From Arabidopsis thaliana (taxonomy: Eukaryota > Streptophyta > Magnoliopsida > Brassicales > Brassicaceae), in assembly GCF_000001735.4 (NCBI RefSeq), contig NC_003076.8, forward strand, positions 14,015,835-14,079,834: a stretch of DNA of 64,000 nucleotides, written 5' to 3'. The notes beneath the pieces are model-generated. The model was not told where the DNA came from. It saw only the letters and a list, made by a program, of their open reading frames with translations, and searched no databases. Shown in pieces: positions 2,312-46,940 of this stretch; position 1 is the first letter of the stretch, and each line of letters starts with the position of its first letter. The position numbers were made by a program, and so were the translations under genes.

Positions 2312-3291
2312 TAGGAGTGTCAAAATTGATCAAAATTCATGGGTCAACTCAACCCATGAACCCTAATGAGTTAAAATTTTTGACTCAAATGAGTTGATGG
2401 GTCAAATGAGTTATTGGATCAATTGGTTTGATGAGTAAAATGAGTTGAGTTGTAATGGTTAATGGTTTCAATGGTTTACCCAATTAACCCATCAAGTTTT
2501 GTAAAATTGAATTAAACCAACTAAAATCTTTAAACCAATACCAATTTAAGTTTAACCAACACATCTAAACCAATTTAATAAAATTAATATTTTTCCAAAT
2601 TTCTTAAATATACAGAGATAAAATTGAGAAGACGTAAACTCGTAATTTTTCCACCAAAAAACATAAACCCGTGATTTTCCCGCCAAAAACGTAAACCCGT
2701 GATTTTCCCGCCAAAAACGTAAACCCGTGATTTTCCTGCCAAAAACGTAAACCCGTGATTTTCCAGCCAAAAACGTAAACCCGTTATTTTTTCGCCAAAA
2801 ACGTAAACCCGTGATTTTTCCGCCAAAAACGTAAACCCGTGATTTTCCAGCCAAAAACGTAAACCCGTAATTTTCCCGCCAAAAACGTAAACCCGTGATT
2901 TTCCAGCCAAAAACGTAAACCCGTAATTTTCCCGCCAAAAACGTAAACCCGTGATTTTCCCGCAAAAACGGAAAACCGTGATTTCCCCTCAGAAACGTAC
3001 ACCCGTAATTTTCCCGCCAAAAAAATGTAAACCCGTGATTTTCCCGCCAAAAACGTAAATCTATAACTTTCCGCCAAAAATGTAAACCCATAAAAAGTAA
3101 AATCCGTGAATATCTTAAGTTTGATGATAATGAATTAATAATTAGTAATAATAATAATTATTTATTATTGTTTTATAATAATAATTAATTAAATTATTAC
3201 TTAAATAGGTTAACTCATTTAACAACTCAACCCATCAAATTAAATGAGTTATGGGTTGGGTTGGGTTGGGTTACCCATTTTAACACTCCTA
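2312..3291. mobile_element. hAT-type MITE carrying an E2F-site minisatellite (copy 1)
   Basis: The 980-bp element starts TAGGAGTGTCAAAA and ends TTTTAACACTCCTA, which are imperfect terminal inverted repeats of hAT type. It is flanked by a perfect 8-bp target-site duplication, GATTTATC, at 2304-2311 and 3292-3299. Subterminal parts (2335-2480, 3205-3275) are rich in ACCCATCAA / TTGGGTTGGG motifs. There is no transposase, so it is non-autonomous and would need a hAT transposase in trans. The centre is the tandem array at about 2640-3085. Confidence 0.9.
2640..3085. repeat. 28-bp minisatellite with E2F-binding core
   Basis: About 16 head-to-tail units of roughly 28 bp with consensus CGTAAACCCGTGATTTTCCC followed by GCCAAAAA. 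Six units keep an exact TTTTCCCGCC, and others differ by one base (TTTTCCAGCC, TTTTTCCGCC, TTTTCCTGCC). TTTCCCGC fits the plant and animal E2F consensus TTTSSCGS. Open frames of 97-179 aa across this tract on the minus strand are by-products of the repeat and are not genes. Confidence 0.9.
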
Positions 3292-3299
3292 GATTTATC

Positions 3300-6637: not shown

Positions 6638-6645
6638 GTTTAAAT

Positions 6646-7705
6646 TAGAGATGTTAATGATGGGTTAAAACTCACTGGGTACCCAAAACCCACATAAAAT
6701 TTTAAACCCATATATTTACTTTTTCTGGAAAAAAAACACAGGTTTAAAATGGGCTGGGTACCCAAATAAATAAAATCCATATGGGTTTACCTCATTGGGT
6801 TATGGGTACCCACGAGTTTTTTTTTAAATCCTTTTTCAAGTGAATCAACATTTTCTTGTCAAAAAAGATTTCGCATTTTTTTCTCCTAAACCACGATTTA
6901 ACAGTTTACCACCAAAAAAAAAATTCAACATTTTCCCGCCAAAGAAGACATTCAACATTTTCCCGCCAAAAACGACAATCAACATTTTCCCGCCAAAACG
7001 CAATTCAACATTTTCGTACCAAAAACGACATTCAACATTTTCCGCCAAAACGCAATTCATCATTTTCCCGCCAAAAACGCGATTCAACATTTTCCGCCAA
7101 AAATGATTTCACATTTTCCCGCCAAAAACGCAATTTAACATTTTCTCGCCAAAAACGACATTCAACGTTTTTCCGCCAAAAAGATTTCATATTTTTTGGT
7201 CAAAAACACAATTTAACATTTTCCCGCCAAAAATGATATTCAACATTTTTCCGCCAAAAACGCAATTTAACATTTTCCCGCCAAAAACGACATTCAACAT
7301 TTCCGGCCAAGAAAAGGATTTGACATTTTTCCCGCCAAAAACGCAATTTAACATTTTTCCGTCAAAAAACGCAATTTAACATTTTCCCGCCAAAAACGCA
7401 ATTTAACATTTTTCCCATCAAATATATATGTAATACAGAAAATAAATATAATTTAAAATATATTTATAAGCAAAATATAGATACAACATACATATAATAG
7501 TATATTAACAATTAAACATAAATTCTAAGAAAATGATAAAAATCAAGTTGGGTACCCACGGGTAGTCTCGGAACAATCATGTTTTTTCAGGCTTTACCCA
7601 CTAAATCAAAAACCCATCTAGGTTTTTTAAAGTTGGGTTTTTGGTGGGCGGGTTTATTTTAAGTTCAGGTCGGGGTGGGCTTTTTTACCCACCACAACAT
7701 CTCTA
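6646..7705. mobile_element. hAT-type MITE carrying an E2F-site minisatellite (copy 2)
   Basis: The 1,060-bp element starts TAGAGATGTTAATGATGGGT and ends ACCCACCACAACATCTCTA, imperfect terminal inverted repeats of hAT type. A perfect 8-bp target-site duplication, GTTTAAAT, flanks it at 6638-6645 and 7706-7713. Subterminal parts contain repeated GGGTACCCA / ACCCATA motifs in both orientations. It has no transposase. Its ends and spacer differ from copy 1, so it is a separate family or subfamily that also carries TTTTCCCGCC repeats. Confidence 0.9.
6905..7420. repeat. 26-28-bp minisatellite with E2F-binding core
   Basis: About 20 irregular units of the type TTCAACATTTTCCCGCCAAA followed by AACGAC or AACGCA. 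Roughly nine units keep exact TTTTCCCGCC; the others are one-step variants (TTTTTCCGCC, TTTTCTCGCC, TTTTCCGCC). The core and its A-rich flank match the array at 2640-3085, but the spacer (TTCAACA rather than CGTAAACCCGTGA) is different. Confidence 0.9.
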
Positions 7706-7713
7706 GTTTAAAT

Positions 7714-8950: not shown

Positions 8951-11861
8951 AACTAAAAGAAATCATTTGATCTCATAGGATTATGGTACGAAACCCACGT
9001 TTTCTACCATTTTCCTACGAAAATATGTCGTAGAGGATGTCCAATAGGAAATTGTAATTGGTAAAAATTTTGTAGGAAATTTTCTAGGAAATAAATTCGT
9101 AGGAAAATTCGTAAAAATTTCATAGGAAATAAATTGGAATATTTTCACCAGTTTCTTATCAAATATTTGGCAAGAAAATTGTTTCTTGAGATCTACTACC
9201 AAATATATTCTAGGATATTAAAACAATAATAAAATTAATTTCCTTTTGATAATCAGATTAATTGCAAAATTAAATTAGGAATATTCTTAACAACAAAAAT
9301 ATTCATTGATTATTACTCCAACAAATAATATATAAACTAAATTATTACTTTTATTAAATATTTTCATTTAATTAAATAATAGAAATACAGTACTACTGTT
9401 ACTCCAACAAGTTAATCTCATTCTCATTAATTTAATAAAAGATACAATTGAGGGTTAAATAATTTGTATTTGTTTCTCATTCCAAAACTTCTTGCTGGCT
9501 AGTTTCTAGTTGAATTTTTTGTTTTAAATATATAAAATAATTGAATTTTAGGTTTAGAGATTTAAATTTCTAAGTAAATGGTATTTTTAAAAGATTGAAT
9601 TGTATATTTAGATTGTTAAAACACATGAAAATGAAAAAAAAAATATTATATATTTATCTACTTTAGTAAGATGAATTATATGTAAACCTAATTAAAATCA
9701 AGAAATTTCCAATTATATTCTCATGAATTACTTTTATCAATTATATATAAACCTAACTAAAATCAAGAAAATCCTAATTATAACTGTTTATCACTTGTTT
9801 TATAATAACCTACGATTTTCCTACCAATAACCTACAAACCATCAATCGTAAGAAATTAATTGATAGGAAATATTCCTTCAAAATTCCTACCAAAATCATT
9901 TTTTTTTGTCAAACAACTTGATTTCATTCATTGCATAACTGAAACAAGTTTACAAGTAGCCAAGGAGCAAAGGTTAAAAAGGCTTAAAACAAAGTAGCAA
10001 CAACAAGAAGCAAAGGTTAAAACAAATGCTACACAAAGATAGCAAAGATAAACCGACAAAGGATCCATGAAACTTGAGGGCCAATGCTACGGAGCCGACT
10101 GGTACCAGTGAGAGCACGGGTTGTCAAAACGTCATCCACAAACAGAGCGGTGGACGAAGTGATGGTCACGGTCCATAATAGATGAGGTGACATTGAAAAG
10201 ATTCTCAAAGTCGAGATTCTCGCTGTCCCAGGTAGATTAAGCAGGAAATGGTCGTCGACAAGGAGAGGGGTTGAGTGGGTTCTGTCACCCGGTGGGTTTA
10301 GAGGTATAGAGTTGAGAAGCATTTGGTAAGCACTGCTCCATAGAGCCGGTCTCATAATGCCATAGCTTCTCAAATCCTTGCTTTCATGAATATCAATCTT
10401 AAAAATGTTAGACAAGTATGGCTCGGATTCAATATTTAAGGGATTTGGGGAGAGAGGATTAAAGAAGTTTCGGTAACCGCCTCTCCGTAGGGAGGAGATC
10501 ATAATGCCGTTATTCTCTAATCTAATAGCATATCTAAAACCTAGATACACCAAGTCCATTAGCCTAAAGCTTTGATGAGAAGATGAAGCACTTGAGGAAT
10601 TACAATTGGCCAGGGTTCTAGAGATAAAATTACACACCAAAACCATTGAAATCGACAAATGGCTTAAGCGGAGTCCATAACCAATTAAGGCGCTAAGTCG
10701 GGATATCAATTCTAATGGGCTAATTAGAGATTTAAGAGTAACAGACCTGGGCCAAACTAGTGGAGAAAATGGGCTACCAAATCCAAGGATGGGCTGAAGA
10801 TAAACAAATAGGCCCAAAAGAGGCCCACCCAAAAGGAGAAACCCTAGGAAACCTCTAGGAAGAGGAGCGCTGCCGTACACCGCCGCCAACATCGTCGGAG
10901 AAGCCAATCCAATAGAAAACAAAGTCGGAGGAGAAGTTTTGATAATCATGCTTGGGAGAGAAACCACTTAGCTTACTGATATAGTCTCGTTTGTTTATTC
11001 CTACCAAACATATGACTATGTTTTCGTAGGAAATTGGAAAAGTTGGTCCCAATGGCGGACCCATGTGGTGAAAAGAGGGGTCATTTGACACCCTTTAGTT
11101 TTAAATCGGGAAAATTCCCGAAAAAAACCCAACTTATTTAAAATCTGCCAGAAAACTACCTAAACCCGTTTTAAATAGTTTGAGATTTTTAGGAAATTTT
11201 CCGGTTTAAATCTTAAATAGTTTTCATCTTGTTTCGGTGACTGATTTGGTATGAAGCTACAATTTTGACCCCCACCCCCACCCCCCCACACAAATGCAGG
11301 ATCGATTCCCGTTGTTGCCATTTTTTCTCATATATTTTATTGGGCCGTAGCCCATATATTTTGTTGTCACCGTTTCTTTTGTCAGATTCTTCTAATATTA
11401 CATTCAACTTTCCAAAACTATAAATATACCAATTTTTCTATATCTTATTTGACCCAGATAAAAAAATTCCTTAGTCCGCGTCCTAGTAATTTCCTACCAA
11501 ATTCCTTCAATATAGTTTTCATAGGGAATTAAAAGGATATTTTCCGACCCAATTCTTATCATTTCTTTTCCCATAAATTTCTTTCTAATCTCCTACAAAT
11601 TTTCCTTCAACTATATATTTTGTAGAAATTTCGTATAACTTTCTCACGATAAGTTTCGTATGAAAATTTTCTACTAATTTCCTACAAAAACTGTTTTCAT
11701 AACAAATCGTAGAGATATGGTAGGAAATATTTCATATCTTTCATCTACAAAATCTGTTTTCGTAAGAAAATCGTAGAGATATGGTAGGAAATATTTCATA
11801 TCTTTCATACCAAATTTTTCGTAGGAAAATAGGTAGTATTTCACCATGTTTTCTTGTAGTA
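8951..11861. mobile_element. Degenerate CACTA (En/Spm)-like non-autonomous element
   Basis: The left end AACTAAAAGAAATCAT and the right end (reverse complement TACTACAAGAAAACATG) are close to the CACTA terminus CACTACAAGAAAAC. Both subterminal regions (8990-9190; 11470-11860) contain many copies of GTAGGAAA / TTTCCTAC in both orientations, the arrangement expected for transposase-binding subterminal repeats. No transposase frame remains. The ends have lost the terminal C, and the 3-bp target duplication is not evident, so this is an old copy. It is interrupted by the Sadhu-like insertion at 9895-10996 and perhaps by another repeat at 11040-11480. Confidence 0.55.
9895..10996 (-). mobile_element. 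Sadhu-like non-LTR retroposon nested in the CACTA element
   Basis: Read on the minus strand, the element ends with TTTGACAAAAAAAAA (poly(T) at 9899-9907 on the plus strand). The 12-bp direct repeat ATTCCTACCAAA at 9883-9894 and 10997-11008 looks like its target-site duplication, although similar motifs occur elsewhere in the host element. The size of about 1.1 kb, lack of inverted repeats, poly(A) tail and conserved 3' segment recall Arabidopsis Sadhu elements, which are non-autonomous and mobilised by LINE machinery. That family name is from memory. A 312-aa frame (10967-10029) spans most of it without a recognisable domain. Confidence 0.6.
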
Positions 11862-14036: not shown

Positions 14037-17000
14037 TCAATTTTTAAAGGACATACTTCGGTTCCCGGATGCCGGAAAAGCTTGACGCCGTTTTCCTTGA
14101 CCAAACTCTGACTGCTCCTGTGTAGACCCCTTCTTCTGACCTGCTGCAGCTTCTCTCTTTCCTTGTCTTCCCTTGTGTCCTTCCCCAAATTTCACCTCTT
14201 TCCTTGCAGCTTCATAATCAAAAGGCTCTATGTTTAAAAACTCGGTCTGCTTTTGGGCCTTCTTGCTCTTATTCATGGATTTAAAGCACTTCTGAAAGTT
14301 TGTGGACAACTCCGAGAGAGACATTGGTTCATCTTCAGCGTCAACTTTTTTCTCATCACCATTTTCTAGTAGTATAATATCGCCCATCTCGGAGCTAGAC
14401 ACTTTGGACTCTGAAACTCTACCAGAAGTACCAACGATCTCTGAGGCTTCTTCTGAATCATCTTTCAACTCTTTCACACCATCTTCCTTGGAAACAGAGG
14501 CTGGCATAGTACTGGACATCTCTTCAGGCTTCCCATAAACTTTCGGAGATGTTTCAGAAGTTGACTTTGAGTCAGGAACTTTCTCTGTAAACGAATGGAA
14601 TGACAGGTTTACAGATGATCTTATCTGTTCGAGCTTCACATCTTCCTTCACCTGAAAACATTTTTATCAATCATTCTGCAACCAAAACCAACTATAGAGT
14701 TTTCACATATATAAACTCACCTTCTCATCAGTTCGAGATTTCTTCTTGGAGGCTGCATTTCCCAGCAAAGCTCCTAAACCACTGCTTGGTTTCTTAGAGA
14801 TCCGAACAGCCGCAGAAACCTAATAAATAACAGATATGTCTTTGAGAGCCCGGCATGGATACTAAAGAGCACCAACCAAAAGAAACAACTAGGTGTCACC
14901 TTAGCAGAACCAAACAAGCCGGATCCTAAACCTCTCCCTTCATTAGTATTTGCTGCACCCATAATTAGGTCCCTGGTACTCTCAAGCTGCGAAGAATTTT
15001 CCTTCAGACTTGGAGAAGCCACATCTCCTGTGTGCAGGTCTTTCTTCTCACTTATAGGTTCAATATTCTTATCCATTACCTACAATATAAGAAGGCCACA
15101 TTTTAAACAGACATGGAGAATACAGGAAAACAGTTGAAACCAATAAGTATCACATGCACTCTGAATTCGAGCCATAAGGTGAGGTTTCAGAAATATGAAA
15201 TTTGGATTCATAATTAGTCTTTGACAGTAAATTATTCCAACTCTAGGCTCTTGTTTTCTTTGCAGGTTGAGTTTTAGAGGGTTTTTAATACCCTAATCGG
15301 CTTTCAACTAGCTTATACACCTCAACCGAAAGCTTACAATAATAATTATACAAAAAGGGAATAGAAACTAAATCAATAGAGATATCTCACATTTCCAGGA
15401 GACACATCTTTTAAAGATAGAGCAGCAGACTCAAATGCTGCATAATGTTGCATTGATTGCCTGATGACACTGACCACCGAATCAACATTACGCTCGATAT
15501 AAGGATGCTTTGACTTCAACATCCGACGCAATTTTCCAACACTATCAGGCATCTCCTTGGCTATTAGGATAGCAACATTAGATTACGTTAGGAACTTAGG
15601 AATTGCCAAAACAAATCCACTCTCTGCCAGATGGTAAAATTGAACTCTCAGCTCTATATACCTATTTCAAGGAGAACTTTGTTTGGCAATACATAACCAG
15701 TGCTCTCATCCTCCGCACGTGCAATGAAATCCCTCCATTCACAAAGCCCCTAAGAGAAAGTAAATTTTAAGTTAGCTTTAAATAGTATAGGAAAAAGCAG
15801 TGTAAGTATGCATCATTCTTCACATCACACGAAAACATCATACCGCAACAATGGCAAGTTGAGCTGCATTAAAGCCCGCTGCTTGAAGCCTAACAAAATG
15901 CCAGAATGAGAAATATAATACTGGTTTATGTAACTTAGCTCAAGAGAAGCCAGCTATTAAAACAACAATTTGATTAACAGATTTAATCAACAAACGCATA
16001 CACCTTGTCTGCTGAAACAAAATAAAATAAGTATGTAGACCCTCTCAAGAAAAAGCAACAAACCCATATACGTGAAGATATGAATTCTCGGTCAATAACT
16101 CTTTCTCATATAGTTGTGTGCACACATCGTAACTCCGCTTGTAGACCTGTAAGAAACAGTAAGACAAAAATAATAGAAAGAACATATTATTCATGGGCTA
16201 TATATCCACTGGATGTAACAATATCTAGACAAGTAGAGTCAGTTGAGCTGAATTACCAATTTTAGACACATGAATTCCAAATTATGTGGTAGGAAATTCT
16301 ATTTTGACTATGCTTACAAAAGTCAATTCAGACAGAGAACTATTTTATGCATGACGGATGCCATTGAAAGTTATTCTTAAAAAGTATTAGAGTGTTGCAA
16401 ACCTAGAAAATCACCTAGGTGAGGCAGCTAGTATATAATAAGAACACTGAAAACCCAGTACCTCCCAAAATCGCTCTTAAAAAACATAAGAATGTTGCAA
16501 ATGTGGAGAATCACTTAAGTTAGGCAGCTAATAAAATAAGAATACTGAAAACTTAGCCTAACCTAAGTGATTGGCCACATATCATTTTCCACTAACAATG
16601 TTATGCCATCAAGTTTTTTAAGGCTACACAAATTCCTATTTGCTAGTGTGGGAAAGTAACAGAAAGATAGTAAGAACCAAGCAGACACTAGCAAAGACAA
16701 TTATACATCTATCATGCAAATACCAACATGCAGAGGAATATTATACTTTTCAGCATAGTTTAATGATGACTACCTCAAGTAGAGGAGAGTCAGTATGCGC
16801 GTCATCCTTTGCCATTCTCTGCAGTTCTAGTTTGATTAAATCATATATGTATAAGAGGTAGTGGGTATCTTCTCTTGCATATCTGCAGGGAAATCCAAAA
16901 ATGTGAGCTCAAGTCAACTTAGGCCAGAACAGTAGTGAAAAGACAAAGGACAGAGAAGATTGACCTTGTCATTTCCTCTGGAAGGGGTCTTATTCTCCAG

Positions 17001-39639: not shown

Positions 39640-39935
39640 ATAGGTGTCCAAAGCTTATGGATCCAAATTCAGATATTTAAATATTTTATATGATATTTTC
39701 TGTTAGTCTTTTCTATTTATTGAAATAATAGTTAATATTATTTTAAAATTTTCATCTATTTTTTGCAGATATGGATAGTCGCATATATTGGTGGATCCAG
39801 ATCTTGATATTTGTTTTATGGATCTAACGGATCCAGATCCAGATAGTTAGTTTACGGATCCAGCGGATTCGGATAGTTGTTTCACGGATCATGCGGATCT
39901 AGAGGATCATGCGGTTCTAGATCTGGGTATCCCAA
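39640..39935. repeat. GGATC-rich subterminal-like repeat cluster (unit A)
   Basis: Many copies of GGATCCAGAT, GGATCTAACGG, GGATCATGCGG and similar motifs within 300 bp. This clustering is typical of subterminal regions of plant DNA transposons. The equivalent unit B region is 46625-46940. Confidence 0.6.
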
Positions 39936-46624: not shown

Positions 46625-46940
46625 GAAAAATATCATGGATCTGAGTTTCGATACAATTCCGGAAATAGGTGTTCAAAGCTTATGGATCCAAATTCAGATA
46701 TTTAAATATTTTATATGATATTTTCTGTTAGTCTTTTTATTTATTGAAATAATAGTTAATATTATTTTAAAATTTTCATCTATTTTTTGCAGATATGGGT
46801 AGTTGCATATATTGGTGGATCCAGATCTTGATATTTGTTTTATGGATCTAACGGATCCAGATCCAGATAGGTGGTTTACGGATCCAGCAGATCCGGATAG
46901 CTGTTTCACGGATCATGCGGTTCTAGATCTGGGTATCCCA
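46625..46940. repeat. GGATC-rich repeat cluster (unit B)
   Basis: The counterpart of 39640-39935, lacking one GGATCTAGAGGATCATGCGG repeat present in unit A. Confidence 0.6.

Follow-up and report, generated by a model that had tools for sequence, protein, structure and literature searches.

Transposons have amplified E2F-binding sites in the Brassicaceae (Henaff et al. 2014, Plant J 77:852, as presented in PMC12595863 and PMC4110626): about 85% of E2F motifs lie within transposons, hAT MITEs are among the carriers, and E2Fa binds transposon-borne E2F sites in vivo in Arabidopsis. The review passages concerned are silent on tandem arrays, spacer types and a common ancestor between families. A second described system is SIMPLEHAT/SIMPLEHAT2, an Arabidopsis hAT MITE that gives rise to Pol IV siRNAs and for which a Simplehat northern probe has been published (PMC3189211). 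In the two families compared here, A and B, the outermost 25 bases were identical to this 25-base probe in 11 of 28 A copies, and the probe sequence was absent from all 17 B-ended copies, including the element under study (copy 2); copy 1, its family A neighbour, was off by two bases. A literature search found no paper joining E2F and SIMPLEHAT and, among titles and the opening lines of abstracts, nothing on E2F arrays common to different MITE families. The kind of element is known; common ancestry of the A and B arrays was not found in print by this search.

The window, a stretch of 64,000 nucleotides on contig 5 (14,015,835–14,079,834), belongs to a genome that comprises 7 contigs and 119,662,809 bases. 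Its two array-bearing elements have the following features, in window coordinates.

2312–3291, plus strand: copy 1, a hAT-type MITE of 980 bp from family A (SIMPLEHAT-like), with target-site duplication GATTTATC at 2304–2311 and 3292–3299
2632–3089, plus strand: tandem E2F-site array of copy 1, 28-bp unit ACGTAAACCCGTGATTTTCCCGCCAAAA (TRF, unit tables)
6638–6645, no strand: left target-site duplication of copy 2, GTTTAAAT, 8 bp, perfect
6646–7705, plus strand: copy 2, a hAT-type MITE of 1060 bp from family B (terminal inverted repeats, target-site duplication, family copies in the genome)
6646–6655, plus strand: left terminal inverted repeat of copy 2, TAGAGATGTT, 10 bp
6646–6890, plus strand: 5' flank of copy 2, its first ~180 bp common to transposase-bearing hAT relatives (25 genome matches with the 5' end as query; profile match to L037 at E 3.5e-29 and to L069 at E 1.3e-18)
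6896–7412, plus strand: tandem E2F-site array of copy 2, 27-bp unit, for example ACGCAATTCAACATTTTCCCGCCAAAA, about 20 units (TRF, core search, unit tables)
7415–7705, plus strand: 3' flank of copy 2, common to transposase-bearing hAT relatives (30 genome matches with the 3' end as query; profile match to L037 at E 1.9e-60 and to L069 at E 7.4e-32)
7696–7705, minus strand: right terminal inverted repeat of copy 2, AACATCTCTA, 10 bp
7706–7713, no strand: right target-site duplication of copy 2, GTTTAAAT, 8 bp, perfect

The boundaries of copy 2, whose family may be SIMPLEHAT1, are set by its perfect terminal inverted repeats together with the target-site duplication, and both the coordinates and the perfect 8-bp duplication given in the initial annotation proved exact. 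TRF resolved a single array (period 27, 19.4 copies, 78% matches), and a looser core search yielded 21 spacers. The units run head-to-tail and are built on the 15-base core TTTTCCCGCCAAAA, which is near-palindromic; it occurs exactly only seven times in copy 2, the remaining units carrying changes, so that the earlier description of about 20 units with the same core as copy 1 holds for the number of units and for the core common to A and B but not for exact identity. Likewise, the spacer had been correctly described as different from that of family A, but the heptamer TTCAACA named for it is only part of a longer sequence, mostly ACGCAATTCAACA, ACGACATTCAACA or near variants. Copy 2 contains nine exact TTTCCCGCC sites, which we take to match the E2F consensus and which are predicted, as a likely outcome, to bind E2F in vivo. 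The only open reading frame of at least 110 amino acids wholly within the element (126 amino acids, TTG start) lies inside the array, and copy 2 has no transposase of its own. An 8-bp target-site duplication, short terminal inverted repeats, the absence of an own transposase and ends common to coding hAT elements place copy 2 in the hAT superfamily as a MITE, one with many E2F consensus sites inside it.

The window also holds repeats and a candidate gene outside these two elements. The same GGATCC-rich repeat (GGATCCAGATCCAGATAG...) lies at 39793–39921 and, 7 kb away, at 46817–46914; a 64-bp tandem duplication with 93% matches surrounds TCGTAGAGATATGGTAGGAAATATTTCATATC at 11682–11808; and on the minus strand at 15810–15903 ARAGORN, in bacterial mode, called a tRNA-Ile(AAT) of 94 bases, a length at which the call may hold an intron or be false.

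Allowing one mismatch, a search of the window for the 15-base core gave 23 hits, 12 of them in copy 2 and 11 in copy 1, where 0.01 would be expected. The exact core is found 826 times in the genome, compared with zero occurrences of the backwards-read control pattern, and 338 of the 826 sit within the copies examined here, 28 from family A and 19 from family B. Whole copy 2 as query gave 51 genome matches, A arrays among them; copy 1 gave at least 65, and its 5' end at least 97 first-look candidates, 40 of which were scored. Our element table started from 68 loci, nine of which were skipped as repeats of other loci, and both ends were recognised in 45 of the 59 that were left (28 A and 17 B-ended, the latter including L037, which has no array, and L022, which has a damaged 3' end); the B unit counts take in L012, L023 and L025 as well and omit L037, giving 19 copies. 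Perfect 8-bp duplications flank 19 of the 28 A copies and 9 of the 17 B-ended copies, five further B-ended copies having duplications that agree at 7 of 8 bases. Of the 45 tabulated elements, 44 possess exact TTTCCCGCC sites, and within each of these all such sites point the same way. Each unit detected in the 28 A and 19 B copies is nearer to the common spacers of its own family, a result that shows the absence of mixing and is not an independent test, the reference spacers being drawn from the same families. In agreement with the initial annotation, A and B are separate families of hAT MITEs that have their core in common and differ in their spacers. Separately, a pair of TTTCCCGCC sites 35 bases apart at L007 (contig 1, 3,825,977) lacks matches to A or B ends and is possibly part of a host promoter.

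Direct comparison of the two spacers was indecisive. Seven edits separate the consensus spacer of A from that of B, a distance equalled by 40% of 20,000 shuffles (P 0.40); the core is identical in the two consensuses. Individual B units were at shuffle level against the A consensus (77 of 100 shuffles reached the observed value), whereas A units were closer to the B consensus than any of 100 shuffles; in a negative control of 25 B units, 986 of 1000 shuffles reached the value for the A consensus and 35 of 1000 that for an A variant. Since the signal is null from B to A and positive from A to B, it is lopsided and weak, and we dropped this comparison as an arbiter of a common source.

A third group of arrays connects the two spacers. 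Six loci (L033, L070, L071, L072, L073 and L075) carry old, degenerate arrays with an intermediate spacer which, by our own reading of the consensus, centres on ACGTGATTCCGTA or ACGTGATTCCGTGA. The longer of the two forms lies 3 edits from the A consensus (0 of 20,000 shuffles), 2 edits from the A variant ACGTAAATCCGTGA (P 5e-5) and 6 edits from the B consensus (P 0.02). The shorter form lies 4 edits from the A consensus (P 0.0006), 5 from the B consensus (P 0.007) and 4 from the B variant ACGCGATTCAACA (P 0.003). With L033 set aside, the 25 degenerate spacers of the remaining five loci, taken as individual sequences with core-adjacent bases trimmed, were nearer to both A and B than any of 1000 shuffles. 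Within that set, the seven spacers of L070 and L071, loci found through their 5' flank alone, were matched by 18 and 0 of 2000 shuffles against the two A targets and by 7 and 1 against the two B targets; the corresponding counts were 0 and 0 (A) and 11 and 0 (B) for L072 and L073, and 29 and 0 (A) and 0 and 0 (B) for L075, counts to be read with the facts that L072 and L073 are alike, that L075 was found by array similarity and that L070 gave two spacers. The initial annotation had held that only the E2F site and an A-rich flank are shared; the resemblance of these spacers to A and B beyond shuffled sequence does not support this.

The hunt for further bridging arrays returned L076–L079, which have an intermediate-type 3' end and zero core-like sites, L080 and L081, which are B-ended and lack an array, and L082, an ordinary A copy; L074 matches the A flank, with no array present. 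At L072, L073, L076, L077 and L078 (contig 1, 12.5–13.1 Mb), the intermediate-type 3' end is joined to similar upstream sequence that lies outside the element as recognised here, and the array is short or absent. This part of contig 1 is presumably pericentromeric.

One of the bridging loci, L033 (contig 2, about 10,507,373–10,508,560), is a single-copy element around which no duplication was recognised. Its ends are A-like (E 6.1e-13 with the 5' profile of A and E 5.5e-14 with the 3' profile; 19 of 22 5' terminal bases), and its single array of 20 spacers is mixed: the first 14 are nearer B, and the six that follow comprise five nearer A and one tie. For the first 14, the distance to the B consensus is 2.79 edits, compared with 7.19 (sd 0.30) after shuffling (0 of 500 reach), and they have no likeness to A (349 of 500 shuffles reach); the last six lie 5.33 edits from a common A variant (shuffled 8.37; 0 of 500 reach) and resemble both A and B (0 of 500 for each). 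Trimming the spacer ends gave much the same results, with 0 of 1000 shuffles for both parts. The change from B-like to intermediate units is sharp and falls near position 1890; when the second half of L033 was searched against the genome, B arrays mostly matched from about 1804 and A arrays mostly from about 1899, with some overlap. The sharp switch, the single copy and the unrecognised duplication suggest that L033 may be recombinant. The initial annotation had named an ancestor holding both spacers as the sign of simple divergence from one family, and L033 comes close to this: B-like and intermediate, A-leaning spacers stand in one array, but none of its 20 spacers is of the fully derived A type.

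On either strand, A flank profiles had no significant similarity to B or coding-hAT flanks (best E 2.5), nor did B flank profiles to A or intermediate flanks (best E 3.8), suggesting that one carrier probably obtained its array from elsewhere. The ends of copy 2 are common to L030, L032, L036, L037 and L069, hAT elements with transposase pieces, all of them fragments. Translated frames of the B-ended L032 matched the Pfam families hAT-like_RNase-H (1.4e-29) and Dimer_Tnp_hAT (1.5e-27), and a frame of L036 had a sub-threshold match to hAT-like_RNase-H (21 bits; Pfam cut-off 27). Copy 2 is therefore a MITE whose hAT lineage possesses, or once possessed, a transposase. Unlike copy 2, these coding elements have no array in the parts covered: TTTCCCGCC was absent from the covered parts of L029, L030, L032, L036 and L037, as were paired core-like sites 22–32 bases apart from those of the same five and L069, where L030, L032 and L036 cover the element partly and lack part of the 5' side.

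The combination of B-like units and A-like flanks in L033 suggests that the array probably passed from one hAT carrier to another in the distant past. We favour the reading, at a probability of roughly 0.55, that both arrays come from one old array that was exchanged early between two hAT carriers. The ancestor would have been a single old minisatellite with a unit like ACGTGATTCCGTA-TTTTCCCGCCAAAA, whose spacer would have changed to ACGTAAACCCGTGA in the line leading to family A and to ACGCAATTCAACA in that leading to family B. At an early date the array would have passed between carriers with different ends, most plausibly by template switching during post-excision repair. Each carrier may then have multiplied as a MITE, using the transposase of coding relatives, and this multiplication would have spread several hundred E2F-like sites.

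A different history, in which one ancestral element had both the ends and the array and the flanks diverged past recognition with no exchange, is unlikely but survives best among the alternatives. The array has the same orientation and a similar position in A and B, and the weak cross-lineage profile scores are located at the termini, where 14 of 22 bases agree between the A and B 3' ends (23 of 20,000 shuffles reach) and 12 of 22 between the 5' ends (255 of 20,000). The termini of copy 2, which had been described as unlike those of copy 1, do differ, but their first 20 or so bases are somewhat alike (11 to 14 of 22). Short terminal likeness is nevertheless expected of two related hAT lineages, and descent with ends and array together sits poorly with L033, the units of which lie about 0.23 from B units while its flanks match A and not B. 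More precisely, the 5' units of L033 are at a distance of 0.233 from B units and 0.252 from each other, compared with 0.208 among B units; because unit turnover may keep arrays alike, the value of 0.233 gives no date for the exchange.

We regard as distinctly improbable the proposal that L033 is a hybrid, a B array gene-converted into an A-like element, and as such uninformative on origin. The sharp switch near position 1890 fits gene conversion, and there is a weak hint of common unit order, L033 beating shuffled order in 4 of 19 B copies at 5% and 1 of 19 at 2.5%. This signal is far below that of the young B copy L009, used as control (16 of 18 B copies at 2.5%), so the L033 array looks unlike one copied from a modern B element. 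However, L027, an old element with B ends, matched the order of only 1 of 18 members of its own family, suggesting that unit order fades with age, and its failure together with the weak L033 signal keeps some room for a hybrid. The bridge does not depend on L033, since L070, L071, L072, L073 and L075 have intermediate spacers without it. L075 behaved similarly to L033 in the order test (2 of 19 B copies at 2.5% and 4 of 19 at 5%). Block homology of the arrays, judged by unit order, was not upheld, given the contrast between L033 (1 of 19) and the control (16 of 18); the match of L033 to few B copies means that homology is demonstrated for the unit and not for the array as a block.

Least probable of all is that the two hAT families came by their E2F sites independently, through capture or evolution, and then amplified them, the separate acquisition proposed in the initial annotation: likeness confined to an identical core against 7 spacer edits, the lack of direct signal between consensus spacers (P 0.40) and the lack of significant flank similarity would suit it, but intermediate spacers related to both A and B, and their combination with B-like spacers in the L033 array, speak against it, and a separate origin of the two repeats is not supported.

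We also asked whether the E2F core is under constraint. Core CpGs of family A are not protected, having changed in 68 of 706 places compared with 62 of 706 for the first spacer CpG (Fisher P 0.65) and 85 of 706 for the second (P 0.17), and single copies therefore seem to decay freely. At A/T positions of family A, 25 of 2824 core bases and 45 of 2118 spacer bases had changed, a contrast biased by the picking of units for core likeness. Between the A and B consensuses, 0 of 14 core positions and 7 of 14 spacer positions differ (Fisher P 0.006, counts entered by hand), although this contrast is partly circular because the core was defined as the shared part; the between-family core identity would fit selection on the elements that spread, subject to the same circularity. 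In the degenerate arrays of L070–L073 and L075, 10 of the 13 full-length cores have a T as their ninth base (TTTTCCCGTCAAAA), 12 of 25 cores having been set aside for not being 14 bases long. With a ninth-base T, TTTTCCCGTCAAAA would be a poorer E2F site and would represent either the ancestral state or C-to-T decay; in this small sample, its frequency suggests that the perfect site may characterise the families that expanded. We put forward as tentative, and rather doubtful, the idea that the E2F array is a module transferable between hAT lineages, its core being kept or perfected in expanding lines because E2F binding might aid the element, for example through S-phase exposure to transposase, with single copies decaying freely after insertion.

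These elements offer a concrete set of loci for asking how transposon families spread a transcription factor site, whether through several captures or through a single array handed from carrier to carrier. In the latter case, part of the genome's load of E2F sites would trace to one ancestral array, and module-level selection on that array would become testable in other Brassicaceae.
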